From Chondrosia reniformis (lineage: Eukaryota > Porifera > Demospongiae > Chondrillida > Chondrillidae), in NCBI GenBank assembly GCA_947172415.1, contig OX359190.1, positions 10,224,995 through 10,288,994 of the forward strand: 64,000 bases of DNA, given 5' to 3'. Shown one piece after another: positions 6,501 to 64,000 of the stretch. The position numbers and the translations under genes are program-made. Under the pieces are notes generated by a model that was given only the letters and a program-made list of their open reading frames with translations, was not told the DNA's origin and did not search any database. Numbering within the stretch: the stretch's first letter is position 1; each line of letters opens with the position of its first letter.

Positions 6501-7852
6501 TGTATATCAGAATCTAATGTACATTTAGTGCTGTAACTCTGTCAATTGGAAAGATGTGAAGCTGAAACTTGTTGTCAGCATTCACAGACATCCATGAAAC
6601 ATATCCAAAGAGTTTTACAAATTTTGATGTTCACTCATATTTGCCCTATATCTCACCATACATTAAATTTGTATAGCAGAATCTAATGTACATTTAGTGC
6701 TGTAACTATGTCAATTGGAAAGATGTGAAGCTGAAACTTGCTGTCAGCATTCACAGCTATCCTTAAAGCATATCCAAAGAGTTTTGCAAATTTTGATGTT
6801 CACTCATATTTGCCCTATACGTACGTATCTCACCATACTTTAAATTTGTATACAAGAATCTAATGTCCATTTAGTGCTGTAACTCTGTCAATTGGAAAGA
6901 TGTGAAGCTGAAACTTGCTGTCAGCATTCACAGATTTCCATGAAACATATCCAAAGAGTTTTACAAATTTTGATGTTCACTCATATTTGCCCTATATCTC
7001 ACCATACTTTAAATTTGTATACAAGAATCTAATGTACATTTAGTGCTGTAACTCTGTCAATTGGAAAGATGTGAAGCTGAAACTTGCTGTCAGCATTCAC
7101 AGACATCCATGAAACATATCCAAAGAGTTTTACAAATTTTGATGTTCACTCATATTTGCCCTATATCTCACCATACTTTAAATTTGTATACAAGAATCTA
7201 ATGTACATTTAGTGCTGTAACTCTGTCAATTGGAAAGATGTGAAGCTGAAACTTGCTGTCAGTATTCACAAATATCCATGAATCATATCCAAAGAGTTTT
7301 ACAAATTTTGATGTTCACTCATATTTGCCCTATATCTCACCATACATTAAATTTGTAAAGCAGAATCTAATGTACATTTAGTGCTGTAACTCTGTCAATT
7401 GGAAAGATGTGAAGCTGAAACTTGCTGTCAGCATTCACAGACATCCATGAAACATATCCAAAGAGTTTTACAAATTTTGATGTTCACTCATATTTGCCCT
7501 ATCTCTCACCATACATTAAATTTGTATATCAGAATCTAATGTACATTTAGTGCTGTAACTCTGTCAATTGGAAAGATGTGAAGCTGAAACTTGCTGTCAG
7601 CATTCACAGATATCCATGAATCATATCCAAAGAGTTTTACAAATTTTGATGTTCACTCATATTTGCCCTATATCTCACCATACTTTAAATTTGTATACAA
7701 GAATCTAATGTACATTTAGTGCTGTAACTCTGTCAATTGGAAATATGTGAAGCTGAAACTTGCTGTCAGCATTCACAGCTATCCTTAAAGCATATCCAAA
7801 GAGTTGTGCAAATTTTGATGTTCACTCATATTTGCCCTATACGTATCTCACC

Positions 7853-8251
7853 TTGTACCCCATTACCATGGCAACGGACAGTATCAGTAGGGGTAATAAA
7901 TCCCATGCAAGGAGAGTAATATCAACAGGAAGTTGTGGCTTTCAATTAGAACACAACACTGCATAATAGAAATACACTAGTACAGCAAGGAAAAAGGTCA
8001 TTCAAATAGTGAAAGCAGCAGTTTGTTGTTCTGCTTCTCAGCTAGGTAGGATAAGTCTTCCGCGGATGCGTGCCCGAAACGCTTGCTAGGGGATACAGCC
8101 GCAGTTGCTGATGGTAAGTATCTATACGTAATAGCTGGGTTCTTAACGAGCTTCAAACGCTTCCTTCTTGGTTCGCTATTCTCCTTGTCCATTTTCCCGC
8201 TAAATAAAATTATAACGCAAGGTATCCTGCTGCCATGGCAAAGCGGTACAA
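7853..8251. mobile_element. Small TIR-like insertion in the satellite, with a short ORF
   Basis: This 0.4-kb unique segment interrupts the monomer array. Its ends are imperfect inverted repeats: TTGTACC...CCATGGCAAC at the left and GCCATGGCAA...GGTACAA at the right. Inside, on the minus strand (8192-7998), is a 64-codon frame starting MDKENSEPRRKRLKL, with a later ASAEDLSYL segment. A basic nuclear-type N-terminus followed by that pattern recalls first exons of Crypton-like or ZMYM-like proteins, but the resemblance is weak. It could be a non-autonomous DNA transposon that captured an exon. Confidence 0.45.
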
Positions 8252-8254
8252 ATT

Positions 8255-8364
8255 AGTTATAACCCGCTACCTCGGGCTTCCGGCAAAATACAATTACTCG
8301 GCCTCGGCTTCGCCTCGGCCTCGTATTGTATTTTGCCTGCAGCCCTCGGAAGTGGGTTATAACT
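8255..8364. repeat. 110-bp inverted repeat (foldback hairpin)
   Basis: The segment begins AGTTATAACCC and ends GGGTTATAACT. The arms continue inward through TTCCGGCAAAATACAAT on one side and ATTGTATTTTGCCTGCAG on the other, around a GC-rich centre of repeated CTCGGCCTCGG. It lies directly against the TIR insertion and marks the return to satellite monomers. Likely a short MITE. Confidence 0.7.
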
Positions 8365-10832
8365 ACTACATACATTAAATTTGTAAAGCAGAATCTAATA
8401 TACATTTAGTGCTGTAACTCTGTCAATTGGAAAGATGTGAAGCTGAAACTTGCTGTCAGCATTCACAGACATCCATGAAACATATCCAAAGAGTTTTACA
8501 AATTTTGATGTTCACTCATATTTGCCCTATATCTCACCATACTTTAAATTTGTATACAAGAATCTAATGTACATTTAGTGCTGTAACTCTGTCAATTGGA
8601 AAGATGTGAAGCTGAAACTTGCTGTCAGTATTCACAAATATCCATGAATCATATCCAAAGAGTTTTGCAAATTTGATGTTCACTCATATTTGCCCTATAT
8701 CTCACCATACTTTAAATTTGTATACAAGAATCTAATGTACATTTAGTGCTGTAACTCTGTCAATTGGAAAGATATGAAGCTGAAACTTGCTGTCAGCATT
8801 CACAGACATCCATAAAACATATCCAAAGAGTTTTGCAAATTTTGATGTTCACTCATATTTGCCCTATATCTCACCATACTTTAAATTTGTATAGCAGAAT
8901 CTAATGTACATTTAGTGCTGTAACTCTGTCAATTGGAAAGATGTGAAGCTGAAACTTGCTGTCAGCATTCACAGACATCCATGAAACATATCCAAAGAGT
9001 TTTACAAATTTTGATGTTCACTCATATTTGCCCTATATCTCACCATACTTTAAATTTGTATACAAGAATCTAATGTAAATTTAGTGCTGTAACTATGTCA
9101 ATTGGAAAGATGTGAAGCTGAAACTTGCCGTCAGCATTCACAGCTATCCTTAAAGCATATCCAAAGAGTTGTGCAAATTTTGATGTTCACTCATATTTGC
9201 CCTATATCTCACCATACATTAAATTTGTAAAGCAGAATCTAATGTACATTTAGTGCTGTAACTCTGTCAATTGGAAAGATGTGAAGCTGAAACTTGCTGT
9301 CAGCATTCACAGACATCCATGAAACATATCCAAAGAGTTTTACAAATTTTGATGTTCACTCATATTTGCCCTATATCTCACCATACTTTAAATTTGTATA
9401 CAAGAATCTAATGTACATTTAGTGCTGTAACTCTGTCAATTGGAAAGATGTGAAGCTGAAACTTGCTGTCAGCATTCACAAATATCCATGAATCATATCC
9501 AAAGAGTTTTGAAAATTTGATGTTCACTCATATTTGCCCTATATCTCACCATACTTTAAATTTGTATACAAGAATCTAATGTACATTTAGTGCTGTAACT
9601 CTGTCAATTGGAAAGATGTGAAGCTGAAACTTGCTGTCAGCATTCACAGACATCCATGAAACATATCCAAAGAGTTTTGCAAATTTTGATGTTCACTCAT
9701 ATTTGCCCTATATCTCACCATACTTTAAATTTGTATAGCAGAATCTAATGTACATTTAGTGCTGTAACTCTGTCAATTGGAAAGAAGTGAAGCTGAAACT
9801 TGCTGTCAGCATTCACAGACATCCATGAAACATATCCAAAGAGTTTTACAAATTTTGATGTTCACTCATATTTGCCCTATATCTCACCATACTTTAAATT
9901 TGTATACAAGAATCTAATGTAAATTTAGTGCTGTAACTATGTCAATTGGAAAGATGTGAAGCTGAAACTTGGTGTCACCATTCACAGACATCCATAAAAC
10001 ATATCCAAAGAGTTTTGCAAATTTTGATGTTCACTCATATTTGCCCTATCTCTCACCATACATTAAATTTGTAAAGCAGAATCTAATGTACATTTAGTGC
10101 TGTAACTCTGTCAATTGGAAAGATGTGAAGCTGAAACTTGCTGTCAGCATTCACAGACATCCATGAAACATATCCAAAGAGTTTTACAAATTTTAATGTT
10201 CACTCATATTTGCCCTATATCTCACCATACTTTAAATTTGTATACAAGAATCTAATGTACATTTAGTGCTGTAACTCTGTCAATTGGAAAGATGTGAAGC
10301 TGAAACTTGCTGTCAGCATTCACAGACATCCATAAAACATATCCAAAGAGTTTTGCAAATTTTGATGTTCACTCATATTTGCCCTATCTCTCACCATACA
10401 TTAAATTTGTATACAAGAATCTAATGTACATTTAGTGCTGTAACTCTGTCAATTGGAAAGATGTGAAGCTGAAACTTGCTGTCAGCATTCACAGACATCC
10501 ATGAAACATATCCAAAGAGTTTTGCAAATTTTGATGTTCACTCATATTTGCCCTATATCTCACCATACTTTAAATTTGTATACAAGAATCTAATGTACAT
10601 TTAGTGCCGTAACTCTGTCAATTGGAAAGATATGAAGCTGAAACCTCTTGGCTGTATGCACATATAGCTATACAGCATATCCTGCTAGTTTTGTAAAATT
10701 TCAAAAAAGGATACCCGAGTTACTGCAGATCGAAAAATACCCTATTCTAAAGTATTGAAGTTTCGCCAACCACAAGCGTTTTCATAGGCAATTACTTTAT
10801 TTAAATAGAAGAGAAAACCTTATAATAGTAGG

Positions 10833-11139
10833 CCTACCTGGACACATCTCTATGGTGGTTGCGGTTCCCATAGAGGTTGGTAGCGCTTAGACTCTGAAGC
10901 TGTCTCCTAATCGGTTGGTGCCATAGAGACGTGCTCACCAATAATCCGGATTTCGGGGGGGTTCCACGTAATGTGGGATTGGCATCTGATATCTTAGGAT
11001 TCATATGAGTCGGCCATATCGAGAAGAACTGGTTCTTCTCACGCAAGTGACACCCAAAGCTCAACTCGGCAGAGCGTTACCACCGATCCCGGCCTCTGAG
11101 CGTCGTGGATGGTAGCGTTCGGTATGGTCCAATTTTTTT
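10833..11139 (+). ncRNA. Candidate structured RNA locus, copy 3
   Basis: Third copy of the 0.3-kb segment, ending in seven T at 11133-11139. The upstream flank (10643-10832) differs from copies 1 and 2 but keeps a TTATAATAG box at the same distance. The change to TGGTTGCGGTTCCCA alters only the loop side of the first hairpin; the CTCTATGG/CCATAGAG stem is kept. Confidence 0.4.
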
Positions 11140-11349
11140 CCTTTGGAGTTTCTTTAGCAGTCGATTGACGATTTTTCACTTTAGCGACATCCATATATTA
11201 TACAGATACTACTTCAAAACAATCAAGTATGACAGAGTGAATATCCATGTGTATTAAAATCTTTAAAAGCGTTCTCGTCATTCAAAAGATACATATAAAA
11301 GTACCGTATTTTCAATATTCCCTTCTCTAGGTCGGCCATTTATATTATT

Positions 11350-13150
11350 ACGAAACTCCCGTCCATTAAATTTCTATACAAGAATCTAATGTACATTTAG
11401 TGCTGTAGCTCTGTCAATTGGAAATATGTGAAGCTGAAAGTTGTTGTCAGCATTCACAGACATCCTTAAAGCATATCCAAAGAGTTTTACAAATTTTAAT
11501 GTTCACTCATATTTGCCCTATCTCTCACCATACATTAAATTTGTATACGTACAAGAATCTAATGTACATTTAGTGCTGTAACTCTGTCAATTGGAAAGAT
11601 GTGAAGCTGAAACTGACTGTCAGCATTCACAGCTATCCTTAAAGCATATCCAAAGAGTTTTGCAAATTTTGATGTTCACTCATATTTGCCCTATATCTCA
11701 CCATACTTTAAATTTGTATACAAGAATCTAATGTACATTTAGTGCTGTAACTCTGTCAATTGGAAAGAAGTGAAGCTGAAACTTGTTTTCAGCATTCACA
11801 GCTATGCTTAAAGCATATCCAAAGAGTTTTACAAATTTTGATGTTCACTCATATTTGCACTATCTCTCACCATACAATAAATTTGTAAAGCAGAATCTAA
11901 TGTACATTTAGTGCTGTAACTCTGTCAATTGGAAAGATGTGAAGCTGAAACTTGCTGTCAGCATTCACAGACATCCATGAAACATATCCAAAGAGTTTTA
12001 CAAATTTTGATGTTCACTCATATTTGCCCTATATCTCACCATACTTTAAATTTCTATACAAGAATCTAATGTACATTTAGTGCTGTAGCTCTGTCAATTG
12101 GAAAGATGTGAAGCTGAAACTTGTTGTCAGCATTCACAGACATCCTTAAAGCATATCCAAAGAGTTTTACAAATTTTGATGTTCACTCATATTTGCCCTA
12201 TCTCTCACCATACATTAAATTTGTATACGTACAAGAATCTAATGTACATTTAGTGCTGTAACTCTGTCAATTGGAAAGATGTGAAGCTGAAACTGGCTGT
12301 CAGCATTCACAGCTATCCTTAAAGCATATCCAAAGAGTTTTGCAAATTTTGATGTTCACTCATATTTGCCCTATCTCTCACCATACATTAAATTTGTATA
12401 CAAGAATCTAATGTACATTTAGTGCTGTAACTCTGTCAATTGGAAAGATGTGAAGCTGAAACTTGCTGTCAGCATTCACAGACATCCATGAAACATATCC
12501 AAAGAGTTTTACAAATTTTGATGTTCACTCATATTTGCCCTATATCTCACCATACATTAAATTTGTATACAAGAATCTAATGTACATTTAGTGCTGTAAC
12601 TCTGTCAATTGGAAAGATGTGAAGCTGAAACTTGCTATCAGCATTCACAGCTATCCTTAAAGCATATCCAAAGAGTTTTGCAAATTTTGATGTTCAATCA
12701 TATTTGCCCTATCTCTCACCATACATTAAATTTGTATACAAGAATCTAATGTACATTTAGTGCTGTAACTCTGTCAATTGGAAAGATGTGAAGCTGAAAC
12801 TTGCTGTCAGCATTCACAGACATCCATGAAACATATCCAAAGAGTTTTACAAATTTTGATGTTCACTCATATTTGCCCTACGTATATCTCACCATACATT
12901 AAATTTGTATACAAGAATCTAATGTACATTTAGTGCTGTAACTCTGTCAATTGGAAAGATGTGAAGCTGAAACTTGCTATCAGCATTCACAGCTATCCTT
13001 AAAGCATATCCAAAGAGTTTTGCAAATTTTGATGTTCACTCATATTTGCCCTATATTTCACCATACTTTAAATTTGTATACAAGAATCTAATGTACATTT
13101 AGTGCCGTAACTCTGTCAATTGGAAAGATATGAAGCTGAAACCTCTTGGC
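11350..13150 (-). repeat. Satellite array, reverse orientation (about 10 monomers)
   Basis: Same 169-bp monomer and orientation as 3782-10650. Together with the preceding 0.7-kb block it forms a higher-order unit of about 2.5 kb: candidate RNA loci 3 and 4 are 2498 bp apart and the flanks repeat. Confidence 0.9.
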
Positions 13151-13330
13151 TGTATGCACATATAGCTATACAGTATATCCTGCTAGTTTTGTAAAATTTC
13201 AAAAAAGGATACCCGAGTTACTGTAGATCGAAAAATACCCTATTCTAAAGTATTGAAGTTTCGCCAACCACAAGCGTTTTCATAGGCAATTACTTTATTT
13301 AAATAGAAGAGAAAACCTTATAATAGTAGG

Positions 13331-13637
13331 CCTACCTGGACACATCTCTATGGTGGTTGCGGTTCCCATAGAGGTTGGTAGCGCTTAGACTCTGAAGCTG
13401 TCTCCTAATCGGTTGGTGCCATAGAGACGTGCTCACCAATAATCCGGATTTCGGGGGGGTTCCACGTAATGTGGGATTGGCATCTGATATCTTAGGATTC
13501 ATATGAGTCGGCCATATCGAGAAGAACTGGTTCTTCTCACGCAAGTGACACCCAAAGCTCAACTCGGCAGAGCGTTACCACCGATCCCGGCCTCTGAGCG
13601 TCGTGGATGGTAGCGTTCGGTATGGTCCAATTTTTTT
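13331..13637 (+). ncRNA. Candidate structured RNA locus, copy 4
   Basis: Fourth copy, identical or nearly identical to copy 3 over the 0.3 kb, with seven T at 13631-13637 and TTATAATAG upstream. The identity of copies 3 and 4 fits recent duplication of the 2.5-kb unit, so conservation here is not independent evidence of function. Confidence 0.4.
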
Positions 13638-13859
13638 CCTTTGGAGTTTCTTTAGCAGTCGATTGACGATTTTTCACTTTAGTGACATCCATATATTATA
13701 TATATAATATGGACAGATACTACTTCAAAACAATCAAGTATTACAGAGTGAATATCCATGTGTATTAAAATCTTTAAAAGCGTTCTCGTCATTCTAAATA
13801 TACATATAAAAGTACCGTTTTCAATATTCCCTTCTCTAGGTCGGCCATTTATATTATTA

Positions 13860-14565
13860 CGAAACTCCCGTACATTAAATTTCTATACAAGAATCTAATG
13901 TACATTTAGTGCAATAACTCTGTCAATTGGAAAGATGTGAAGCTGAAACTTCTTGTTAACATTCACAGACATACATAAAGCATATCCAAAGAGTTTTACA
14001 AATTTTGATGTTCACTCATATTTGTCCCCTCTCTCACCATACATTAAATTTGTATGCAAGAATCTATTGTACATTTAGTTCAATAACTCTGTCAATTGGA
14101 AAGATGTGAAGCTGAAACTTGCTATCAGCATTCACAGCTATCCTTAAAGCATATCCAAAGAGTTTTACAAATTTTGATGTTCACTCATATTTGCCCTATA
14201 TCTCACCATACTTTAAATTTGTATAGCAGAATCTAATGTACATTTAGTGCTGTAACTCTGTCAATTGGAAAGATGTGAAGCTGAAACTTGCTGTCAGCAT
14301 TCACAGCTATCCTTAAAGCATATCCAAAGAGTTTTGCAAATTTTGATGTTCACTCATATTTGCCCTATATCTCACCATACTTTAAATTTGTATAGCAGAA
14401 TCTAATGTACATTTAGTGCTGTAACTCTGTCAATTGGAAAGAGGTGAAGCTGAAACTTGGTGTCAGCATTCACAGACATCCATAAAACATATCCAAAGAG
14501 TTTTGCAAATTTTGATGTTCACTCATATTTGCCCTATCTCTCACCATACATTAAATTTGTATACG
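13860..14565 (-). repeat. Satellite array, reverse orientation (4 monomers) up to the strand switch
   Basis: Last reverse-oriented monomers. The array ends in TTAAATTTGTATACGTATGG, where the ATACGTAT palindrome is the exact point at which orientation flips. Confidence 0.88.
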
Positions 14566-16062
14566 TATGGTGAGAGATAAGGCAAATTTGAGCAGATATA
14601 AAAATTTGCAAAACTCATTGCAAACCTTTCATACATCTCTGTGAATACTGAGATAGAGTTGCAGATTCATATCTCTTCATTTTGAAGAGTTACAGCACTT
14701 AATGTACTTTAAATTACTGCTATACGAAATTAATGTATGGTGACAGATAGGGCAAATTTGAGTAGAAATCAAAATTTACAAAACTCATTGAAAACCTTTG
14801 ATACATCTCTATGAACCCTGACATAGAGTTTCAGATTCATATCTCTTCATTTGGAAGAGTTACAGCACTTAATGTACTGCTATACGAAGTTAATGTATGG
14901 TGACAGATAGGGCAAATTTGAGTAGAAATCAAAATTTACAAAACTCATTGAAAACCTTTGATACATCTTTCTGAACACTGACATAGAGTTTCAGATTCAT
15001 ATCTCTTCATTTGGAAGAGTTACAGCACTTAATGTACTGCTATATGAAGTTAATGTATGGTGAGAGATAGAGCAAAATTGAGCAGATATCAAAATTTGCA
15101 AAACTCATTGCAAACCTTTCATACATCTCTATGAATACTGAGATAGAGTTTCAGATTCATATCTCTTCATTTTGAAGAGTTACAGCACTTAATGTACTTT
15201 AAATTACTGCTATACGAAATTAATTTATGGTGAGAGATAGGGCAAATTTGAGCAGATATCAAAATTTTCAAAACTCATTGCAAACCTTTCATACATCTCT
15301 GTGAATACTGAGATAGAGGTTCAGATTCATATCTCTTCATTTTGAAGAGTTACAGCACTTAATGTACTTTAAATTACCGCTATACAAAATTAATGTATGG
15401 TGAGAGAAAGGGCAAATTTGAGTAGAAATCAAAATTTACAAAACTCATTGCAAACCTTTGATACATCTTTGTGAACACTGACATAGAGTTTCAGATTCAT
15501 ATCTCTTCACTTTGAAGAGTTACAACACTTAATGTACTTTTAATTACTGCTATACGAAGTTAATGTATGGTGAGAGATAGGGCAAATTTGAGTAGATATA
15601 AAAATTTGCAAAACTCAATGAAAACCTTTGATACATCTCTGTGAACAGTGACATAGAGTTTCAGATTCATATCTCTTCATTTGGAAGAGTTACAGCACTT
15701 AATGTACTTTTAATTACTGCTATACGAAGTTAATGTATGGTGAGAGATAGGGCAAATTTGAGTAGAAATAAAAATTTGCAAAACTCATTGCAAACCATTC
15801 ATACATCTCTATGAATACTGAGATAGAGTTTCAGATTCATATCTCTTCATTTGGATGAGTTACAGCACTTAATGTACTTTAAATTACTGCTATACGAAAT
15901 TAATGTATGGTGAGAGATAGGGCAAATTTGAGTAGTTATAAAAATTTGCAAAACTTATTGAAAACCTTTGATACATCTCTGTGAACACTGACATAGAGTT
16001 TCAGATTCATATCTCTTCATTTGGAAGAGTTACAGCACTTAATGTACATTAAATTTCTATTA
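14566..16062 (+). repeat. Satellite array, forward orientation (about 9 monomers)
   Basis: Monomers begin TATGGTGAGAGATA (or TATGGTGACAGATA) with a period of about 165-170 bp and are homologous to 2040-2760. Divergence is higher than in the central array. The array passes directly into the right flanking repeat at about 16070. Confidence 0.88.
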
Positions 16063-16330
16063 TACGACCTAAACAATAAAATTTCGAAAGAAAACGGTTG
16101 AGGTTGGCGCTTTCCCAGTAAAATGTATAGGGTATTTTCGAGTAAAATGTAATTATATCATTTCAAGTTAATTCCGGATCAGCATATCGTTCCAAGCAAT
16201 TCAACAGATATATTCAGTATTCGTGGTTCATCTCGAAACTGGGGGAAATGGATAAAATCCTGTTTGTGCTTTAAGAAATGAAGGAGAGGAGCTTTTCTGG
16301 TCCCATGTAGAAACGATTTTAGCGAGTGGT

Positions 16331-51309: not shown

Positions 51310-52588
51310 TTAGCGTTCCTTAACAATTTTCTCAAAAGTTGCGGATATTCTTTTGATATAGCTGCTACCCTTGATCAATTTCTCTAAAATCACTCCATTT
51401 GGCAATTTATTCACTGGAATATACTTTTCTGCTAATTGGATGGCTTCAGCATAAGTAAGGTTTCCTTTGAGGCTCAACTCTATTCTATCTCGTTAAATTC
51501 TGTTAAATCCGTTGACATGAGATCTTTTAACAATTTTTTCAAGGACTCAAACTTATGCCTAACCGACTTGAGTGTTTGGGGAATCTGAATTTGAACAGTT
51601 GAAGCTGCTTTCAAGTAGTGCAGGAGATGCTGGTAAACTATAATGGGTCCTTCAGGAACATCCACTTCTACAGACCCTTCTTCTCTCAGCATCATAGGGA
51701 ACACTTTACCTGAAACAACTTTTTTTATCAATTGAGAAAAGGGGGATCCCTGTTTCCTTCGTAAGTTGCACTAGTTCCTATGTCCTACCTACAAGATGCA
51801 ACAGGGTATCTTGGCAAAGTATAGTCTTTCATTATTAAGCAGAATGAGGAATCCATTGCCTTTATGCCATAGGCATAAAGACAAACCTGATTTACTCCAG
51901 CATCTTGCAGAGCTTCAATTAGTGTCTCCAATGTAAGCGTACACCTTCCTCCAATGAAGCATTTTGCATTCTTTGCAGGAAGCACTGTCTGACCACGGAG
52001 GATTATATGTTGACACACTTCATCCTTTCTGCCAGCAGTAAGTGGAGCGAACAATTTCCAGCCCATATCCCCAATCAAAACCAAATGTGAAAGCTCACGG
52101 ACAACATGTGGTGTGTTTAGAAGGTGAATGAGGGTCAAACCTATAAACACATATATATATATACAGTACAAATTACAATATACTATATATATATATATTG
52201 GAGCCATATGAATTATTTAATTAATTATATTATATTATATTATTTATTTATATTAGATTACCTTAGTATATTGTAACTTGTACTATATATATATATATAT
52301 ATTTGAAAAATCTGTATTATATATATGTATATATATTAAATTAATTAATTATATTATATTATATTATTTATTTATATTAGATTACCTTAGTATATTGTAA
52401 CTTGTACTGTATATATATATATATGCAATGTGTGCACTATTTATATAAATGGGGTGCTCAGAAGGTGTATGAGTATATATCTATACCAAACCTGCAAACC
52501 ACATAAGGACTTGGATTAGAGTTGCTATAACTTACATTTAACAAGCTCCAGCTGCCGTTCACACCTCTCCTTTCTTTAGTTCCCGCCA
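51310..52588 (-). pseudogene. Unrecognised gene, paralogue copy 1, frameshifted
   Basis: The core exon (about 52155-51800) reads LIHLLNTPHVVRELSH, LIGDMGWKLFAPL, EVCQHIILRGQ, LEALQDAGVNQVCLYAYG and splices in phase at about 51796 to VFPMMLREEGSVEVDVPEG. That frame stops at 51480. One frame over it continues as ELSLKGNLTYAEAIQLAEK, and the DNA shows an ATAGAATAGA duplication at the break, so a 5-bp duplication explains the shift. A second frame change near 51370 leads to LLRNAKKVSRIIYFDGQ and a donor. A candidate first exon (MAGTKERRGVNGSWSLLN, 52588-52535) did not join in phase. Function unknown; no motif recognised. Confidence 0.45.
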
Positions 52589-52931
52589 TTCTCGTGACTA
52601 CTTCTGTTGCGCAATCCCCACACGGAAGTGATATATAATATATATACGTACTTATTATTTTAAAGGAATCGTAGAATTAAACGTTCTTTTTACAAATAAG
52701 ATCGATGAATTAGGTATATTTAACTTGGTTAGGCCCGTATTATGAACAAAACATTCATCGGAATGGAAATACTTCTACACGGCCTTTATCGACACCTTTT
52801 TATGTCCTCTTCCGAGTAGGCCACCTTGGAAAGCATGTTTCTTTGGATAGAAAAGGGTAATGAGTCTAATATTCCTGTCATGCCCGTACCAAGCATTGAA
52901 TTATGGAAATATAATGTAATACTGTTCCTAG

Positions 52932-53519
52932 TTATTGTTTGCTGTAGTTATAACATGCATTCCCTTCAGGAACCTCTATCATGACAGAACCAGAATCTTT
53001 GAGCAACATCAGATAAACTGCACCACGAGCACGTTTTGAGATGGTAGAGTGGAATATTACCTCCTTCAACCTCTGCTGCATTTCCAAAATCCCATCTGCA
53101 TGGAACTATGGGATTCCGAGGTACTTTGTATTCAGTCAGCAGCCTGATATTCATGGTCTCGTGAGCCTTCATGCCATAGGCATATAGGACGACTTGTTCC
53201 ACACCAGCTTCTTCCAGAGCTCCAATGAAAGTAGAAAGAGAGATCATGCAGCAACCACGAATAAATATCCTAGCATTTTCAGAAGGTTGAACAACCTGGC
53301 CACGCAGCGTCAAAATTTGGCAAACTTCTTTCATCCGTCTTGTAAGGGGTGCGAAAATCCTCCAACCGAAGTCTCCTAGCAACAGGAGGTGTGAAAGTCG
53401 GTAACAACATGAGGTTGGTTTAGTAGATGGACCATGGTCACAAGAGTGAACCAAGTCAGAATTTCCTTAGTCTGAAAGGGAAAGCAGGCTGAGTCCAGGT
53501 CTATCTCCATTTCTTCCAT
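52932..53519 (-). pseudogene. Unrecognised gene, paralogue copy 2, frameshifted and truncated
   Basis: Homologous to copy 1: MVHLLNQPHVV, LSHLLLLGDFGWRIFAPL, EVCQILTLRGQ, LEEAGVEQVVLYAYGMKA, then, after an intron at 53060-53018, VYLMLLKDSGSVMIEVPEG. Starting from ATG 53519 (MEEMEIDLD) the frame breaks by one missing base between HVV and RLSH (near 53400). The C-terminus ends eight residues after EVPEG, far earlier than copy 1. Both copies are on the same strand in tandem. Family unknown. Confidence 0.45.
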
Positions 53520-54238
53520 TTTGCTCACTGAGGTGAATGTTGACTGATTCCGCTCTATTCTTTATATAGGCAAAAATCGGACCCTAGTGTAGAAAGGATC
53601 ATGTGATCCCCAAGGTATCCCTTTTTGATTTTTGTGAATGACAGACTACATTTTAGTGAATAAACCGAATTATATATATAATTTTCAATTATTTTAATTG
53701 ATATTCTGATATAATAGGATAGTAATTATTAAAATATAATATAAAATAATAAAAATTTATAAATATTAAGGAAATATAAATAATAAAATTAATAAATAAA
53801 TCTTGAAATTATATATAAAGGTATATAGTGAATGTTACATATTATTATATTATACAAATAGTTAAAATGTAAGGAGACAAATGGGTGTGGCTAGACTAAT
53901 TCTGTAAGAGCGAGGGTGGTCTTAATTAGTGGGCGAGTCCTCCGAAATTAATATGAGTGGGTGGGGCCAATGTACAACGCAGAGTGGGCGGATCTTCCGA
54001 AACTAATTAGGGGTAGTTTTTATGTTGAGCACTAACGGATTGAATCTAGTTAGTGGGCGGGTCCTCCGAAATAGATTAGGGGGTGGGACTTACTTCTAAG
54101 CTAATTGATTAAAACTAATTATTGGGCAGGTTCTCCGAAACTAATTAGGGGGTGAGACTTAGGGGGCAATTTTTATCATTTTAAGGAGTCACTGTATAAA
54201 GTCGCATTTAATAAACAACATTATAAGCTTGAAAATAC
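53520..54238. repeat. AT-rich spacer with imperfect 55-65 bp tandem repeats
   Basis: At 53885-54160 there are four to five diverged units sharing AGTGGGCGGGTCCTCCGAAA and GGGGGTGGGAC words; the rest is AT-rich. No gene seen. Confidence 0.6.
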
Positions 54239-57200
54239 TTAAAATTTGTAGCGTATGTAATATAAGTTAGCTGTTTTGTCGTAAGTGTAGTCAATTGGTA
54301 ACAGAATTTGTCCCAGCTTGACTTTCCTTGTCTGTCCTGCTGTAAACTTGTGGCCATTTTCTCCTATAGCTAGGTGGTGCCTGAGTGGAGAAAGGATGAT
54401 GTCTTCACCTTGAAGTCTGTACACTTTCCCGAAGGATCCATCTGTCTTGATAGCCACAGGTTCTCCAATGGTAGGTTCCAATGTTGTGTTTTCTATGATG
54501 TCGTCTGCTGTAGCAGACCTCTTTGGTGAGCCCTCACAGTTGGAGTCACCTAATAAGCTTGTTTGGAGCCTGGTTCTTGAAAATTCATGTGCCTCCTTTT
54601 GCTTGTCCATGCTTGTTCGTCTGTCATACTCTGACAGTTGCTATGTATATGTGATAAGATAAATGTGACTCCGTTCAGCAGGTACTAAAGTAGTCAGCTT
54701 ACCGTTTTTCTATTGTGCTTCATGGACCTTGCTAAAGATGTCTTAAGTTTCTCCGATAAGTCCATCTCCTCTAGATTAGTAACAAAACTTGACCTTATAG
54801 TGTTGATCCCCACATTTTGACCCGTGAATTGATAAAAATACCCTTTATATAGGTGGACCAGCTGCCAGAAGTAAAGGGACTTCCACCTGGTCTCTGCATG
54901 TAGAAGAACATTCAGAAATAAAGATGCAGAAGTGATTGTTGATCAGTTGACTTACCACAAATAGGGATGAATTCTTTGGATCCGAGCAAAGGTAAGCCTT
55001 CCTGTTTAATATATGTTCCTTTAATTGTTGCAAAAGTAGGGGGTGATCATCCAGAGAGACCAGATCATCATTGTAAAACTTCTTTGTTTTGTAATCTGAC
55101 AGGTAGAGAAAGGCGTGGTCCCCCTCCAGATCTATATGGAGCATGTTGGCCTTGGTGGCATACTTTCCCAGCGATGGAAGCCCTAATTGTGTACCTGTGT
55201 TTGCAGGGAGGAAGTGACGACAGACCTAGGTGAGTCAGACAGTGATAATTTAATACAATATACTTGTGCCTTTACCATAAAATGTAGGGACTGGTACTCT
55301 TTTGACCTCCTGGGAGGCAGGTCTGTATAGAATAGTAGTGCTAGAAATTTTTGTCCTAGCACAGCCTTCTTTATACCAGAGTCTTCACTAGCATATGCAT
55401 TTTTGCATTGTTTCACCACCTGTAAAATTTCGTCCCTAAGTAGAAAGATTAGTATATAATTTTGTTATGTTATTTACAAACAACAGAGATACACTAATTA
55501 GAAACTTACCAATCAAGCCACATTCTCTGTGCCTTCAAAGCATCTCTGCTTTGATGAGCTGTAAGGGAACTAGATGCTTTCTTAAAGGATTCTGATTTTT
55601 TCTTAAGCCTTTTGTAGAAGGGTGTGTCATATGAAATGTCTTCTTCTGCTGCTAAGTAGCGTAGAATGTAGCAGAGATGGTCAATGTACGTCCCAATTGT
55701 GCTTCCCATTAGGTGCTTATCCTATATTGAGAGATATTAGCAAAGATTGGGGCAATGGTGGTGGATCACACTGGCAAGGGAGGTGTTGAGGAAAATTACA
55801 AAGTGGTAGGATGGTATTCAGCATTTGACATGGTAAGACACATATATGTATCAGTGTTTACTAACCTCTAAAGAGTTAAGAAAACTTTCTAGCATGTTAC
55901 TATCCCTAGTATCTTCTAGACTGGGTTCTTGCTTAAAATTAACTGAAACATAATGTAGATAGTCTGTGCAAAAAAGGGAAGTATAATGTTTTTCCTAATT
56001 AGGACTTGCATAGCAATTACTTACTCAAAGTGTGTAATTTGACTTTTTCCCAAGTCGATTCCTGGATACGGTCTCCATCCCTTTTCAAATTTGTGCTGCT
56101 TAGAAAGAACCTTTCTGTAGCTTTAATTTGCTTGGCCAATTGAGAGTGTTGACTGAGGTCAAGATAATTAGGCATTCTTCCTGGTTTTCCTTTTTTTACA
56201 GGGGGAAGCATGTATTCATAGGTACTGTCGTCATCATCCTCAGACTCGGAATCATCAAAAGATGAATCAGAGTGATATGAAGCAGATGATAGTCTGTTGA
56301 CTACTGGAGGCTGAATATTTAACTCAGGTAAATCTGTAGCTGTAGTATATGTACCTTGTGGCTCCTTGGGTTGGGGAGGACTTAGGGCGAGACTTGTGGC
56401 TGGGATGGATGTACCTTGTGGCTCCTTGGGTTGGGGAGGACTTAGGATGCGGCTTGTAGCTGGGATGGATGTACCTTGTGGCTCCTTGGGTTGGGGAGGA
56501 CTTAGGACGAGATTTGTAGCTGGGATGGATGTACCTTGTGGCTCCTTGGGTTGGGGAGGACTTAGGACGAGATTTGTGGCTGGGATGGATGTACCTTGTG
56601 GCTCCTTGTATTGGGGAGGACTTAGGACGAGATTTGTGGCTGGGATGGATGTACCTTGTGGCTCCTTGGGTTGGGGAGGACTTAGGACGAGATTTGTGGC
56701 TGGGATGGATGTACCTTGTGGCTCCTTGGGTTGGGGAGGACTTAGGACGAGATTTGTAGCTGGGATGGATGTACCTTGTGGCTCCTTGGGTTGGGGAGGA
56801 CTTAGGACGAGATTTGTGGCTGGGATGGATGTACCTTGTGGCTCCTTGGGTTGGGGAGGACTTAGGATGCGGCTTGTAGCTGGGATGGATGTACCTTGTG
56901 GCTCCTTGGGTTGGGGAGGACTTAGGACGAGATTTGTAGCTGGGATGGATGTACCTTGTGGCTCCTTGGGTTGGGGAGGACTTAGGACGAGATTTGTGGC
57001 TGGGATGGATGTACCTTGTGGCTCCTTGGGTTGGGGAGGACTTAGGACGAGATTTGTAGCTGGGATGGATGTACCTTGTGGCTCCTTGTATTGGGGAGGA
57101 CTTAGGATGCGGCTTGTAGCTGGGATGGATGTACCTTGTGGCTCCTTGGGTTGGGGAGGACTTAGGACGAGACTTGTAGTTGGGATGGATGTACCTTGTG

Positions 57201-57387
57201 GCTCCTTGGGTTGGGGAGGACTTAGGATACGGCTTGTAGCTGGGATGGATGGTGGCCGCTTGACTCCTAGATGGTGAGTCTCACCTGGTTTAGATGATGG
57301 TTCTGCTGGTGGGTTTGTGTTGTGTCCCTGTTCTTTCATCCTTTTAAACATTAGAAACTCCTGATACTCTTCTGGCGCAATGTCCAT
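54239..57387 (-). CDS. Tyrosine recombinase with repetitive N-terminal region (one homopolymer frameshift)
   Basis: DNA strand-exchange enzyme of the tyrosine recombinase/phage-integrase superfamily. Seven exons (57387-56025, 55942-55866, 55721-55510, 55435-55264, 55225-54956, 54893-54703, 54640-54239) join in phase to about 895 residues, except that exon 6 is one base short: in the A5 run at 54834-54838 the frame shifts. Every expected catalytic element is visible: LFYTDLPPRRSKEYQSL (Arg 593/594), DYKTKKFY (Lys 654), INTIRSSFVT (Arg 732, with Asn where His is usual in HxxR), MKHNRKT (His 758) and LSEYDRR (Tyr 767), with the normal nine-residue His-Tyr spacing. The N-terminal 360 residues are dominated by 15 copies of a 20-residue Pro-rich repeat, then an acidic Ser/Asp tract. 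No reverse transcriptase is nearby, so Crypton-like rather than DIRS-like. Natural break or assembly error cannot be decided. Confidence 0.75.
56341..57255 (-). repeat. Coding 60-bp repeat in the tyrosine recombinase
   Basis: Fifteen 60-bp units encoding TSIPATNLVLSPPQPKEPQG with variants SRI for NLV and PPQY for PPQP. Units are almost identical in DNA, and variants alternate in a pattern that shows block duplication. Confidence 0.97.
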
Positions 57388-57447
57388 GGTAGTCCTTTGT
57401 CTTTGAAGAAGTGAAAAGTTAAGGTGAGTCTGGTTTAACACTTTCAT

Positions 57448-57702
57448 TTATATACTGAAACTTGCATAAAATTTATTCTGATGTAATATTTCCTTATATG
57501 GGTGCATTTTGCCCCTGCTGTTGGTCAATTAACATGATTGAGCAGACAAATTCCACTGTTGGGCTTCAATGAGTTCATTAATATGGGAGCAGTGTTAATT
57601 GTAAAGGCACCAGACAACATTCAGATTCAGATTAACTGTATCCTAATACAATATTGGTTTAATTATCTAGTTATTATTATTGAGTCATTGGTCTAAAATT
57701 AA
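57448..57702. other. Short spacer between the SET gene and the recombinase gene
   Basis: About 300 bp between the SET stop codon and the recombinase start codon, on the same strand. AT-rich, no feature recognised; the recombinase promoter or an upstream exon would lie here. Confidence 0.45.
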
Positions 57703-60113
57703 TTATGTCCTCCTTCTTTTGGAATGTAGAAGCTCTGGCCATGGTAGCTGAACTTCCCTGTCAAAGTTCTGGCCCCAATGCTCCCTAAAGTTAGTGAAGA
57801 TGGAGTCCCGGAGTGTGGCTTGGCTCCAGGCAGCGTGGTTGTGAGGAAGCACAGTCCATGCAAGGGCTTGTATGAGTACATGAGACTTTCCCCAGGTGTG
57901 AACTGCAGTGGTTGAAAGGTAAGGCAGCCAAAAGGATTTTATTCCATAGTGTATGGTCAGTTCCTTGGGAACTTCTGTTAGTTGAGCCCTTTCCTTGATG
58001 GTACAAAGTAGCTGCCCTTGTATGGTTCGAAAGCTTGCTAGGCAATGTGCTTCTGCAATATTCTCAACCTGTCTAAGATGTATCTGGCCCAAAGCACATT
58101 GCCTAGCAAGCTCTCGAATAGACTCCTCCAGGCCTCCCTGGTTGACAAAACGCCCTGTATTGATGCCATTATAATTGTCTGCGTTAAAGAATTCCAAGCG
58201 GCCTGCTGTCTCCCTCATGAGTAGATAATCGAAGGATGGCAAGTTATCCGCTTCCTCCTCAGAGATGGAGGAGGAAGCGTAGATGGTCAAACTGCTTCCT
58301 GTTGGAATGAAGGAGCCAGGGGAACCTGCAATGAAGCAGCCCAGCCCAGCCCCTGGAATATTACTCTGTAGCACCATGATGTTGCCTTCAAATCTGTTTT
58401 GCCTGCCTTTGGCTACCTTTATGGTCCCAGCACTGGTGTCGATGCTCACCTCACGAGAGATTACTAGGGACTGGCGTAGATTCCATGGGAGAAGCTGGGC
58501 TGGAACTGCTCCATTGCAGATACGATAGATACCAACAAGTTGTGACTGCGCCTGCGCAGCCACAACTTGGTAGGAGTTTGGGGCAGAGGCCTCTCCGGTG
58601 GTAGGGTGAGAAAGGCCAAGGCTCAAGAGAGCCTCCCCATTGCAGGTGGAGCTGCCATCTTCATGGACAAAGTCCACTGCAACGAGGAGACGTCTCCCTG
58701 ACAGGTCCTTCTTCCCTGTGGTATGAATAACCACCTTCTTGGCACCTGCCAGGTGAGACCTTGCCTTTCTAAGGCATTCTACACCCATTTCAACCCTTCC
58801 ATTCTCGTGAATGTACATATGACCTACTTCTGGTGCATCATGGCCCCACTCCCGAAATGGTACACCTCTTGGAGTCTCCAGATCAGAGAGATTATGACCC
58901 TGGAGGAAGTCTCCCAACCCCCTGAAGGCTGAGGTGAGAATGAACCCCCCATCCCCATCCACATAGTTAAGTGCCCCAATTGGGTTAGAAGTGGCGAAAG
59001 TGGCTGTGAGCCCAACCTGGGACGGAGATAGGAGACTACTGTGGCTCACAGCTACACTGACGGCCGACCTCAATGTAGCAGTAGAGTGGCTGTGGGTTGG
59101 TAAATATCTAAGCAGTGCACTCTCCTCAGGTACTTGCTGGGCTAAGGTTGCCAATGCCTCCAGGTGTGTGGGACTTAGGTCAGTGTACTGAATGTGGTCC
59201 AACTTAGTGAAAATTTGCACACTTCTACATGGTGGAGAACGCTGATTCAATGGTAGTCTGGAAGAGATGGAGGCCAGCTCTCTTTGGCAGGCTGTGCAAG
59301 CATCATTTGCACATTGCTGAACCCTGCAGACATACCTGGTAAATTCTTCCTGAGAGGTCTTGTTGCAAAGTGCAGTTGTGACCTCTCCCAGTGGCACCCT
59401 TGCTGCATTGGCAAGTGTCAGTATGTACTTGCCAATGCGGTACTCTGCCCTCAAAGCAGTCAAGGTATTGGCCCTCCTCCACTGCAATATTTGGCTGAGG
59501 TGTTTTTCCCAATCTGGAGATGGTGCAGATTCATCCATTTCAGCCAAATCTTTAATAGTTTCTTCTCTTGTTGTTAGGATTGATTTTAGGATGTCTGCTG
59601 TAATAGAAGGCCCACCATACGTAATTAATCCAGATGTTGAGTGAGGGAGTCCTTCGAAGGAGCACACCCCAGGGTGCTGCTCCGTCCTGTACCAGTTTGC
59701 CCGGTACTCATAGACTGTCCTTGTAGGACAGGACGATCTTTCAGGTGATGGGCTCAGGATGGCCTGCGGTGTCTCCAAATGAGTACATGTGGAGGATAAC
59801 TGACTTACTGCCTGGGGTGGTTGAGTCACATCCTCGGGTGGTTGAGTCACATCCTCGGGTGGTTGAGTCACATCCTCGGGTGGTTGAGTTACAGCCTGGG
59901 ATGGTTGAGTCACATCCTGGGGTGACCCTGGAAGAGGGAAGACTACTGTGATTGTCCCTTCCATTTTAATAAAATCACTCCAAGACTTACCAAGGAAAAG
60001 CTGTTCAGCTTGACAAAGCAATAAGAAGACAGCCTCATAGTCCCCATCTATAGGGCTATGTCTTGTGACTAAAGCCTCCAGAGCACGAAGCTTGTCGCAG
60101 CACTGTTGTATTC
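57703..60113 (-). CDS. SET-domain protein, 5' end incomplete
   Basis: Large exon 59927-57703 joined in phase to 60113-59991 (QQCCDKLRALEALVTRH ... AEQLFLG) through a 63-bp intron; at least one more exon lies upstream, unresolved. If unspliced, ATG 59964 would start a 753-residue product. The SET domain is at about 58362-57940: NIPGAGLGCF opens it, NTGRFVNQGG stands at the AdoMet-binding NHxxxPN region, and ELTIHYG replaces the usual ELTFDYG. SET domains methylate lysines; the Asn-His pair is altered to Asn-Gln and the Asp before Tyr to His, so activity is uncertain. The N-terminal part has a five-unit VTQPPED repeat and a Cys-rich CANDACTACQREL segment. The tail ends HSKRRRT, a possible nuclear signal. 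Same strand as, and 300 bp upstream of, the recombinase gene. Confidence 0.65.
59815..59920 (-). repeat. Coding 21-bp repeat in the SET gene
   Basis: Five units encoding VTQPPED/VTQPSQA, at the 5' edge of the main exon. Confidence 0.92.
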
Positions 60114-60149
60114 CTACATTGTTGGTTTGTTAATATGTAATTACTTATG

Positions 60150-60325
60150 TATATATTTATTAACATTCATTCTTTTTTCAATTTAGGTTTTGTGGCCAAA
60201 CAGCTAAGGATGAGCTATTATTAATTTAAATTTTATGTATATATTTATTAACATTCATTCTTTTTTCAATTTAGGTTTTGTGGCCAAACAGCTAAGGATG
60301 AACTATTATTAATTTAATTTTTTTA
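60150..60325. repeat. Tandem duplication of about 88 bp
   Basis: A segment including TTTTGTGGCCAAACAGCTAA and TATGTATATATTTATTAAC occurs twice with almost no differences, upstream of the SET gene. Confidence 0.9.
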
Positions 60326-61009
60326 TTGTAAATATACTAATAATTATTATGGCTTCGTATATGCATTGCAAAAATGGATGTGCGGGCGATAAAAACATGG
60401 TGTTCCGTATCTAAAATCCGGAAGTGACTTAAAAGTATTTAGCCATTAACTTATCTGTTTTTCAGTACGCAAGAGGCCAAACATTTACATAGGACTATTA
60501 TATACAGCTCCAGCTTATTAATTTTGTAGTTTTATGTCTGTAAAATAGCAGTTGAAATGACACTAATTATATAATAAAATTACGTGTCTTGGATTTTCTC
60601 GGATACTGCGTAAATTACCATTACAATCGCCCTAATGAAAAATAAACTAAACCTGCTCAAGAAACTAACCAGACATAACTGAGAAACACTATTGATACTT
60701 GTGAACTAATAGAAGACTCTTGAAAAACGTCGAAAGAATGATGCAATCGCAAAAAAACTACGCATTTCAGATACATATATATTAATTTCTCGATTCCATA
60801 CTATACGCTCAACTTTTTAATAAAGGGACCGCTTTAATTTTGAGATTTACAATAATTTTATTAGTTAAAACGAAACATTGATCAAGTCAAGTACCTTGCA
60901 CATGCCCAATATGCGCATTTAATTGTGAAACACCGTTAAATAAACAAATTCTTGTATAACCACAAAGCGCACCTTTAAATGTGCCATTTACACAATACCC
61001 TACCTACGA
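60326..61009. other. AT-rich subtelomeric DNA, nothing recognised
   Basis: No gene, RNA or repeat structure seen. A missing 5' exon of the SET gene may lie here. Confidence 0.4.
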
Positions 61010-61690
61010 CATGCATGATTTACTGAATTTATATGAGCATACATGCATCTACATGCTTCTACATACATCTACACGCATCTTCATGCATTATTACTTACAT
61101 CTACATGAATCTACACTCATCTTCATGAATTTACAAGTATCTATATGCATTTTAGATGAATCTAAATGAATTTTACAAGCATTTTTACATGAATCAACAT
61201 GCAACTACATGTATCAAATCAACATGTATCTACATGCATTTACATGTATTTACTTGCATCTACCTGCGTCTACATGCGTCTACATGCATCTACATGAACA
61301 TACAAAAATCTACATGTGTCTACATGCATCTACTTGAATTTACATGTTTATAGATGCATCAACATGCATCTACATGCAGCTACATGCATCGGCAAGACTC
61401 TCCATGCACCTACATGCATTAACATGCATCTACATGCATTAACATGCATCTACACGCATTAACATGCATCTACACGCATTAACATGCATCTACACGCATT
61501 AACATGCATCTACACGCATTAACATGCATCTACATGCATTAACATGCATCTACATGCAATAACATGCATCTGCATGAATAAACATGCATCTACATGCATC
61601 AATAGGCATCTAAATGCTTCTGCATGAGGGCATCTAAATGCATCTACATGCATCTCCATGCATCTCCATGCATTAATATGCGTCTAAACC
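61010..61690. repeat. 12-bp ACATGCATCTAC subtelomeric satellite
   Basis: About 55 variants of ACATGCATCTAC and AACATGCATTAA-like words, each centred on the palindrome ATGCAT. The left half is degenerate and the right half (61420-61560) has near-perfect 24-bp units. Confidence 0.93.
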
Positions 61691-61694
61691 TAAC

Positions 61695-62022
61695 TGTATT
61701 AACAATAACTTGAAAAACCCAAAAACTCTAAACCAAAAACCCTAGCCCCGATTCCCTAATTCCAAAAAACCTAAACCCAAGAACTCAAACCCAGAAAACC
61801 CTAACTCCAAACATCTAACCCCGAAAACCCTTACCTGATAACCCTAGCATCAAAATCACTAGCCTCGAAAACTTAACACCGAAAAACCCTAATTTAAAAC
61901 ATTAATCTTGAAAACCCTAACCCCGAAAAACCCGAATTTAAAACAATCTCGAAAAGCCTAACCCCCAAAACCTTTCCTTGATACCTTAACCCTGTAATCC
62001 CTTACCCAACAACCCTAACTCT
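61695..62022 (-). repeat. Degenerate CCCTAA-like block, inverted relative to the telomere
   Basis: Many AACCCTAA, AACCCTAAC and CCGAAAACCCTA words with irregular spacing. The C-rich strand is on the plus strand, opposite to the terminal array, so this block points towards the chromosome interior. Looks like decayed telomeric repeat or a telomere-derived satellite. Confidence 0.8.
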
Positions 62023-62316
62023 ATAGGCTAGGGTTTATGGGCTGGGTTTATGGGCTGGGTTTATGGGCTGGGTTTATGGGCTGGGTTTAAGGGCTGGGTT
62101 TATGGGCTGGGTTTATGGGCTGGGTTTATGGGCGGGGTTTATGGGCGGGGTTTATGGGCGGGGTATATGGGCTGGGTTTATGGGCTGGGTTTATGGGCTG
62201 GGTTTATGGGCTGGGTTTATGGGCTGGGTTTATGGGCTGGGTTTATGGGCTGGGTTTATGGGCTGGGTTTATGGGCTGGGTTTATGGGCTGGGTTTATGG
62301 GCTGGGTTTATGGGCT
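62023..62316 (+). repeat. 14-bp satellite GGGTTTATGGGCTG
   Basis: About 20 units, three of them with GGGCGG in place of GGGCTG (62130-62165). It resembles a telomere-like GGGTTTA word joined to TGGGCTG and passes directly into the true telomere. Confidence 0.95.
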
Positions 62317-64000
62317 GGGTTAGGGTTAGGGTTAGGGTTAGGGTTAGGGTTAGGGTTAGGGTTAGGGTTAGGGTTAGGGTTAGGGTTAGGGTTAGGGTTA
62401 GGGTTAGGGTTAGGGTTAGGGTTAGGGTTAGGGTTAGGGTTAGGGTTAGGGTTAGGGTTAGGGTTAGGGTTAGGGTTAGGGTTAGGGTTAGGGTTAGGGT
62501 TAGGGTTAGGGTTAGGGTTAGGGTTAGGGTTAGGGTTAGGGTTAGGGTTAGGGTTAGGGTTAGGGTTAGGGTTAGGGTTAGGGTTAGGGTTAGGGTTAGG
62601 GTTAGGGTTAGGGTTAGGGTTAGGGTTAGGGTTAGGGTTAGGGTTAGGGTTAGGGTTAGGGTTAGGGTTAGGGTTAGGGTTAGGGTTAGGGTTAGGGTTA
62701 GGGTTAGGGTTAGGGTTAGGGTTAGGGTTAGGGTTAGGGTTAGGGTTAGGGTTAGGGTTAGGGTTAGGGTTAGGGTTAGGGTTAGGGTTAGGGTTAGGGT
62801 TAGGGTTAGGGTTAGGGTTAGGGTTAGGGTTAGGGTTAGGGTTAGGGTTAGGGTTAGGGTTAGGGTTAGGGTTAGGGTTAGGGTTAGGGTTAGGGTTAGG
62901 GTTAGGGTTAGGGTTAGGGTTAGGGTTAGGGTTAGGGTTAGGGTTAGGGTTAGGGTTAGGGTTAGGGTTAGGGTTAGGGTTAGGGTTAGGGTTAGGGTTA
63001 GGGTTAGGGTTAGGGTTAGGGTTAGGGTTAGGGTTAGGGTTAGGGTTAGGGTTAGGGTTAGGGTTAGGGTTAGGGTTAGGGTTAGGGTTAGGGTTAGGGT
63101 TAGGGTTAGGGTTAGGGTTAGGGTTAGGGTTAGGGTTAGGGTTAGGGTTAGGGTTAGGGTTAGGGTTAGGGTTAGGGTTAGGGTTAGGGTTAGGGTTAGG
63201 GTTAGGGTTAGGGTTAGGGTTAGGGTTAGGGTTAGGGTTAGGGTTAGGGTTAGGGTTAGGGTTAGGGTTAGGGTTAGGGTTAGGGTTAGGGTTAGGGTTA
63301 GGGTTAGGGTTAGGGTTAGGGTTAGGGTTAGGGTTAGGGTTAGGGTTAGGGTTAGGGTTAGGGTTAGGGTTAGGGTTAGGGTTAGGGTTAGGGTTAGGGT
63401 TAGGGTTAGGGTTAGGGTTAGGGTTAGGGTTAGGGTTAGGGTTAGGGTTAGGGTTAGGGTTAGGGTTAGGGTTAGGGTTAGGGTTAGGGTTAGGGTTAGG
63501 GTTAGGGTTAGGGTTAGGGTTAGGGTTAGGGTTAGGGTTAGGGTTAGGGTTAGGGTTAGGGTTAGGGTTAGGGTTAGGGTTAGGGTTAGGGTTAGGGTTA
63601 GGGTTAGGGTTAGGGTTAGGGTTAGGGTTAGGGTTAGGGTTAGGGTTAGGGTTAGGGTTAGGGTTAGGGTTAGGGTTAGGGTTAGGGTTAGGGTTAGGGT
63701 TAGGGTTAGGGTTAGGGTTAGGGTTAGGGTTAGGGTTAGGGTTAGGGTTAGGGTTAGGGTTAGGGTTAGGGTTAGGGTTAGGGTTAGGGTTAGGGTTAGG
63801 GTTAGGGTTAGGGTTAGGGTTAGGGTTAGGGTTAGGGTTAGGGTTAGGGTTAGGGTTAGGGTTAGGGTTAGGGTTAGGGTTAGGGTTAGGGTTAGGGTTA
63901 GGGTTAGGGTTAGGGTTAGGGTTAGGGTTAGGGTTAGGGTTAGGGTTAGGGTTAGGGTTAGGGTTAGGGTTAGGGTTAGGGTTAGGGTTAGGGTTAGGGG
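62317..64000 (+). repeat. Telomere, (GGGTTA)n / TTAGGG
   Basis: About 280 uninterrupted TTAGGG units to the end of the window, with only the last base off-register. The G-rich strand reads 5' to 3' outward, as at a right chromosome end. TTAGGG is the ancestral animal telomere repeat. Confidence 0.98.

Follow-up and report, generated by a model that had tools for sequence, protein, structure and literature searches.

Background

Does a tyrosine recombinase (YR) gene lying beside a telomere of a sponge belong to a mobile element and, if so, what brought that element to the chromosome end? The question is raised by the window, a 64,000-nucleotide stretch of the Chondrosia reniformis genome that forms the right end of contig C2 (positions 10224995-10288994), in which a YR gene and a second long gene, hereafter the partner gene, stand on the same strand. 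A sequence-only reading of the window had proposed that the two constitute one mobile element, that the partner encodes a SET domain and that genes further downstream are cargo. The available text of the genome report describes an assembly of 117.37 Mb with 14 chromosomes and a 17.45-kb mitochondrion (PMC12181767); the sequence analysed here comprises 117,379,552 bases in 15 contigs. Copies of the element are named by contig and chromosome end (L or R, with a or b where there are two), so that the copy in the window is C2R.

Our analysis indicates that the two genes belong to one repeated unit with common ends, present at many chromosome ends, and that this unit is probably a compact two-gene DNA transposon of the sponge whose YR integrates at telomeric repeats. 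To our knowledge, the telomere-specific mobile elements known so far are retroelements or, where YRs are concerned, giant endogenous viruses.

A unit with common ends in telomeric repeats

Both genes occur together in ten subtelomeric copies, all reading inward, and partner-gene sequence, whole or deleted, lies just upstream of the YR in every one. Side-by-side recurrence, which had been suggested as a check, is thus found within this genome, where the two genes are not confined to separate, single-copy places. Exon 5 of the YR has 11 genome matches, namely these ten copies and a relative on C5 at 4.096 Mb. The partner protein has at least 35 matches (56 of 61 candidates scored); the subtelomeric ones are on C1, C2, C3, C5, C7 (two), C10 (two), C11 and C14 (both ends), and diverged fragments lie in the interior of C1, C2, C5 and C8. 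The extra partner copy on C7 (C7Rb) has no YR match and stands outside the ten. Degenerate versions of both genes lie within 5 kb of each other at C5 4.09 Mb, in the order YR then partner and with telomere-like repeats nearby; they may be two neighbouring remnants.

The copies share the ends (CCCTAA)n|TTAATCC...AATTGCC|CCCTRA. Their alignment gives a sharp inner end (...AAAATGATAAAAATTGCC), the border being ambiguous by a base or two within a C run. A genome search with the 23-base inner end returned 12 exact places and one with 3 mismatches; a control search with the reversed pattern, allowing as many as 3 mismatches, had two hits. All 12 exact inner ends lie at most 25.4 kb from a contig end and in the same orientation relative to it; the 13th match (C2, 37.1 kb) has the opposite orientation and a non-telomeric flank. 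Each of the 12 junctions reads AATTGCC followed, in register, by CCCTAA (ten) or CCCTGA (two: C3L and C10Rb). What lies beyond varies from copy to copy: CCTATACC arrays in C1R, CCCTAGCCCATAAA arrays in C5L, CCCTAG arrays in C11R, GTGACAGGG arrays in C10Ra, alternating CCCTAA and CCCTGA in C7R and C10Rb but in opposite phase, an inverted telomeric tract in C14L, and other sequence in C14R, C3L, C2L, C11L and C2R. At C14L two telomeric tracts meet head to head, CCCTAACCCTAA then GGGTTAGGGGGCAATTAGGG, and the flank includes a few bases resembling an element end; it is possibly an old telomere fusion.

The outer end, TTAATCCTGAATTTT, is found at nine places in the genome, eight of which read CCCTAA|TTAATCC (C1R, C3L, C7R, C7Rb, C10Ra, C10Rb, C11R and C14R) and one AACTAA|TTAATCC (C2L). 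Outside C3L, C7R and C10Rb at least 300 consecutive hexamers follow, with one mismatch allowed in each, and these copies therefore adjoin long telomeric arrays; C1R and C11R adjoin shorter tracts. The outer flank of C1R reads CCCTAACCC-GCC-CCCTAA-TTAATCC, in which GCC resembles, at a distance of one hexamer, three bases from the right end of another copy; at three bases this is a weak hint of the mechanism proposed below. In C2L, at 1370-1410, all that is left of an element copy is its final ~20 bp, set between telomeric repeats, and the site has the look of an end that healed after erosion of an outer copy.

The five copies measured from end to end span 10,033 bp (C7R), 9,305 bp (C3L), 8,561 bp (C1R), 7,851 bp (C11R) and 6,877 bp (C10Rb). 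The differences come at least partly from an outer-region repeat of ~353 bp (unit length read from frame spacing), from 20-residue repeats in the YR and from partner deletions. Over 1,792 bp, from YR exon 2 to the inner end, the eight copies with an intact YR differ by 0-4 substitutions (0-0.22%), and C1R, C5L and C7R are identical, yet their inner flanks differ. The window copy differs from the eight by 12-15 substitutions. The element is a discrete unit: its ends are fixed, and near-identical copies sit at many chromosome ends, all oriented alike and in register with CCCTAA-type repeats; the proposal that YR and partner form one element is borne out, as is the expectation of common ends.

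The recombinase gene

The YR gene runs on the minus strand from 57387 to 54239 in seven modelled exons, the splice borders being read from the sequence. All five catalytic motifs that had been recognized can be read in order in the window copy, as LLFYTDLPPRRSKEY (Arg box), DYKTKK (Lys hairpin), NTIR (second Arg), MKHNRKT (His) and LSEYDRR (Tyr), with Asn at the box-II His position. The frame is open from start to stop, at 866-946 residues, in eight of the ten copies (C1R, C5L, C7R, C10Ra, C10Rb, C11R, C14L and C14R). In the window copy slight changes in the length of exons 5 and 6 interrupt it, and it is also broken in C3L, which was scored as broken on a cut exon 5 and the length of exon 6 and in which no start codon was found.

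Standard profiles pass the protein by. The spliced YR matched no YR family in Pfam (hmmscan), and its sequence had no match in NCBIfam or the PDB. Searched over the genome, the general integrase model PF00589 gave 41 matches at E<=0.1 and PF12012 (DUF3504) four matches at three places, none of them at the element, although not every Crypton need match the latter model. The DUF3504 (Crypton-type) YR genes lie at C5 3.758 Mb, C14 4.095 Mb and C2 4.658 Mb; some of the other genes matching PF00589 are perhaps, we presume, DIRS or Ngaro.

A first protein search with the YR gave nothing at E<=0.001 among 4,369 candidates, and a search with a two-row YR alignment returned nine rows at E<=1 among 4,316 candidates. 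P0002 (81%) and P0007 look like this genome's own, P0007 carrying the sequence of the C5 4.096-Mb relative, and P0004-P0006 are further rows. P0003, which comes from a 180-kb contig, is absent from this genome, where its best match is 56%, and has no match in PHROGs. P0008 reached an E value of 2.2e-8; P0009 (0.18) and P0010 (0.49) are not significant by this search alone. Alignment with P0003 and P0008-P0010 confirms the order R..K..(H)xxR..H..Y, and a relative lends support to the YR catalytic fold. The best viral structural matches of that relative are algal giant-virus and virophage proteins. The 99.8% probability obtained with alignment A7 is partly circular, because A7 contains P0003.

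Viral contigs searched with alignment A3, P0009 and P0008 yielded no relative. Alignment A7 found two loci of one 15.6-kb IMG/VR contig (IMGVR_UViG_3300006802_016932), a region of which is present in both orientations; the contig encodes a distant YR relative together with DNA-methyltransferase-like and long primase/helicase-like frames, so labelled by eye.

The partner gene

The gene that had been placed 300 bp from the YR on the same strand is indeed there, its frame ending 315 bp before the YR start, but its identification as a SET gene finds no support. Pfam searches of the open frame and of seven members of partner alignment A2 gave no match up to E=10, and the genome-wide search with PF00856 (SET) gave 19 matches, none at the element. 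Comparison by hhalign with a SET alignment built from five fragments of this genome returned a probability of 2%, both alignments being shallow; the structure model is unusable (predicted local distance difference test score, pLDDT, 34.8), and NCBIfam, PHROGs and PDB sequences lend no support. This is not disproof, given the shallow alignments, and the SET label is best abandoned unless a fold can be demonstrated. The only protein-search match, P0001 (97%), looks like this species' own.

The first in-frame Met of the partner frame is at residue 55, and a further 5' exon is possible from the sequence. The frame is full length in four of the ten copies (C2R, C1R, C5L and C7R) and internally deleted in the other six, with at least two different breakpoints. 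Because six copies are deleted, the partner protein seems dispensable in cis.

Proposed site-specific insertion and its alternatives

Site-specific recombination is suggested by the constancy of the ends, the register and the orientation, together with the presence of a lone integrase, and the best reading of the target is the telomeric repeat itself. In the mechanism that we envisage, the YR would release a circular form of the element, by excision or copying, in which the two ends meet at a CCCTAA core; the conservative Arg/Lys/Arg/His/Tyr reaction would then recombine this core with a telomeric hexamer, and the asymmetry of the core would set the orientation. A role in trans, at DNA or chromatin, is possible for the partner protein. 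Terminal erosion of outer copies, with new insertion into what remains, would leave stacked, eroded remnants.

Several observations weigh against this reading. Perfect inner tracts number 0-5 hexamers in nine copies, with one or two in C2R, C2L and C11L; long tracts would be the usual outcome if a kilobase-long telomere were hit at random. A number of inner flanks come from subtelomeric sequence families that chromosome ends have in common, with the junction placed differently from copy to copy (C7R and C10Rb beyond their arrays, C11L inverted; C2L and C14R), a pattern that recombination among the ends would produce as well. The window copy and C3L share the same break in exon 6; the spread of at least some copies thus did not depend on a functional YR of their own, unless the breaks arose independently. 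The pN/pS of the partner, comparing the window copy with three others, is ~0.7-0.9, which falls short of showing purifying selection at this depth. Foldseek against solved structures gave no match reaching an E value of 0.001 (best 1.2e-3, probability 1.00). Neither a circle nor an empty/filled polymorphism nor a target duplication was observed, duplications being indistinguishable inside a hexamer array.

The strongest competitor takes its model from the Y' elements of yeast, which are subtelomeric, flanked by telomeric repeats and stacked, carry a helicase and spread by homologous recombination. On this account the sponge element likewise spreads by homologous recombination or break-induced replication between flanking telomeric repeats, and the YR is a passive passenger or an ancient founder. 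Location, orientation, differing inner flanks and stacking are all explained; short inner tracts suit recombination at short telomeres, and C2R and C3L, with their broken exon 6, still differ in their flanks. All but three facts, indeed, come easily from break-induced replication between telomeric repeats. Those three are that in variant arrays shifted in phase the junctions are exact to about one repeat, C10Rb and C3L lacking a donor CCCTAA beside the end; that C1R and C7R, identical over the 1,792 bp, differ in both flanks; and that YR frames have stayed open in most copies and partner genes have been deleted in most. We regard this account as unlikely, though it deserves to be taken seriously.

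A second alternative derives the element, as a remnant or a satellite, from some larger endogenous DNA virus with a telomere-specific YR, such as the crustacean nimaviruses, for which the available text of one study reports such enzymes (PMC10871703), or the Polinton-like viruses. The viral structural matches and the IMG/VR contig lend it some colour, but the ends lie only 6.9-10.0 kb apart in the five copies measured, and only short frames are seen beyond the two genes (in the outer 3.7 kb of C7R 93 residues at most, judged by eye with no profile run), so that we hold it to be very improbable. Equally improbable is that no mobile element is involved and that a subtelomeric pair of host genes was spread by ordinary segmental duplication; this fits the subtelomeric position of all ten two-gene copies but would carry flanks along, whereas the shared sequence stops alike at telomeric hexamers on the inner side in 12 of 12 cases and on the outer side in eight of nine.

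Comparison with known systems

The element is probably a YR DNA transposon, and its target specificity is the surprising part. It has its target type and enzyme class in common with the nimavirus elements, and neither the Crypton nor the general integrase model matches it. Endogenous nimaviruses (Majanivirus, Pemonivirus and some whispoviruses) are the closest parallel in target: in the text available, their YRs are tied to insertion in telomeric repeats of an animal genome, and the authors set them apart from Cryptons and other eukaryotic YR elements (PMC10871703). Their genomes are ~280-400 kb, reside in crustaceans and target (TAACC)n, in contrast to the two genes and at most ~10 kb of the sponge element. 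The latter is thus some thirty to forty times smaller, with no virus genes seen, core genes not having been searched singly, and the YRs were compared by target and class only. The YRs of Polinton-like viruses, virophages and giant viruses share PPRRxK[DE]Y and YKTKK-type motifs, structural matches and the distant relative on a viral contig. Unlike Polinton-like viruses and virophages, the element shows no capsid or packaging genes, its two long genes lacking Pfam matches and the rest of C7R holding short frames by eye.

Cryptons, according to the available text of PMC3212892, are likewise YR DNA transposons without reverse transcriptase. They differ in that the sponge element has a second gene, a telomeric target and a YR unmatched by the DUF3504 model; with partner sequence upstream of the YR in all ten copies, the YR is not its only gene, as it is in a Crypton. 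DIRS and Ngaro carry a reverse transcriptase and split or inverted terminal repeats. In the sponge element neither gene matched a reverse transcriptase family and the outer region has no further long frame, no dedicated reverse transcriptase profile search having been run; self-comparison of C7R revealed no terminal direct or inverted repeats. For Starships, with their DUF3435 captain YR, the hmmscan result given above holds: no YR family was returned. Y' elements resemble the sponge unit in their subtelomeric position, telomeric-repeat flanks and stacking, and differ in their helicase.

TRAS and SART are telomere retrotransposons. Terminons (PMC6431247) and FoTeRs (PMC12857005) are described as telomere retroelements in the available text of those papers. 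All four place mobile DNA in or at telomeric repeats, but do so by reverse transcriptase, none of which was noticed in the sponge element. We found no report of a compact telomere-targeting YR transposon in the open-access literature, most subscription papers lying outside this scope.

The window copy and its surroundings

The window copy is a decayed member of the family (Table 1). The extent first proposed for it, 54239-60113, is its coding part and smaller than the whole retained copy; the outer ~3.2 kb known from C7R are missing, so that the copy is truncated on its outer side. The telomere noted upstream is present and fills the end of the contig.

Table 1. Features of the element copy and telomere in the window
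Feature	Position	Strand	Remarks
Retained part of element copy	54165..60788	-	Inner end at 54165; alignment to other copies ceases at ~60788
Single telomeric hexamer CCCTAA	54159..54164	-	Directly past inner end AATTGCC; border within C run ambiguous
YR exon 7	54239..54640	-	Nucleophile Tyr and ~120-residue C-terminal tail
YR exon 6	54703..54893	-	Second Arg and His; frame broken in window copy
YR exon 5	54956..55225	-	Lys hairpin DYKTKK; open model of intact copies takes an acceptor 31 bp further in
YR exon 4	55276..55435	-	First catalytic Arg box PPRRSKEY
YR exon 3	55510..55721	-	AG/GT borders conserved in 10/10 copies
YR exon 2	55866..55963	-	AG/GT borders conserved in 10/10 copies
YR exon 1	56025..57387	-	~15 copies of a 60-bp (20-residue) in-frame tandem repeat at 56349-57251
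Partner gene, 808-residue open frame	57703..60129	-	SET-like motifs by eye only
Terminal telomere (GGGTTA)n	62317..64000	+	

The downstream same-strand genes once taken for cargo lie beyond the inner end at 54165, and their family has matches elsewhere; we reject them as part of the element. Two related host-like genes (51500-53540, minus strand) lie just inward of the inner end, and their family has 10 genome matches, these two included, one of which (C5 4.139 Mb) is 2 kb from a weak YR match. The 452 bp between them (52512-52963) are 94% identical, in inverted orientation, to positions 219-678 of the C7R element, in its outer region, a match that could reflect capture of host DNA by the element or the converse.

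Just upstream of the partner frame is an 88-bp tandem duplication, 98% identical (60145-60320). Subtelomeric 10-bp (TACATGCATC) and 13-bp (TATGGGCTGGGTT) repeats occupy 61040-62321, a block partly common to ends without element-gene matches (C1L, C6R, C8R, C9L and C13R). Satellite arrays of 169-170 bp, apparently of two families, make up ~11.5 kb within 2072-16067.

Conclusions

A bolder proposal, which we put forward tentatively and judge rather doubtful as a whole, is that this is the first compact animal DNA transposon known to us to inhabit telomeric repeats through site-specific recombination, with a YR of virus type reprogrammed to a CCCTAA core and accompanied by a highly diverged SET-like methyltransferase that would condition telomeric chromatin, allowing low-harm colonization of chromosome ends and the rebuilding of subtelomeres. 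The partner deletions pose the clear question of a trans-acting helper. If insertion at telomeric repeats by the YR is true, a small two-gene element would offer a tractable system for the recognition of telomeric DNA by a recombinase, and would serve both as a model of insertion at low-harm sites and as a force in the evolution of subtelomeres in an animal of early-branching lineage.

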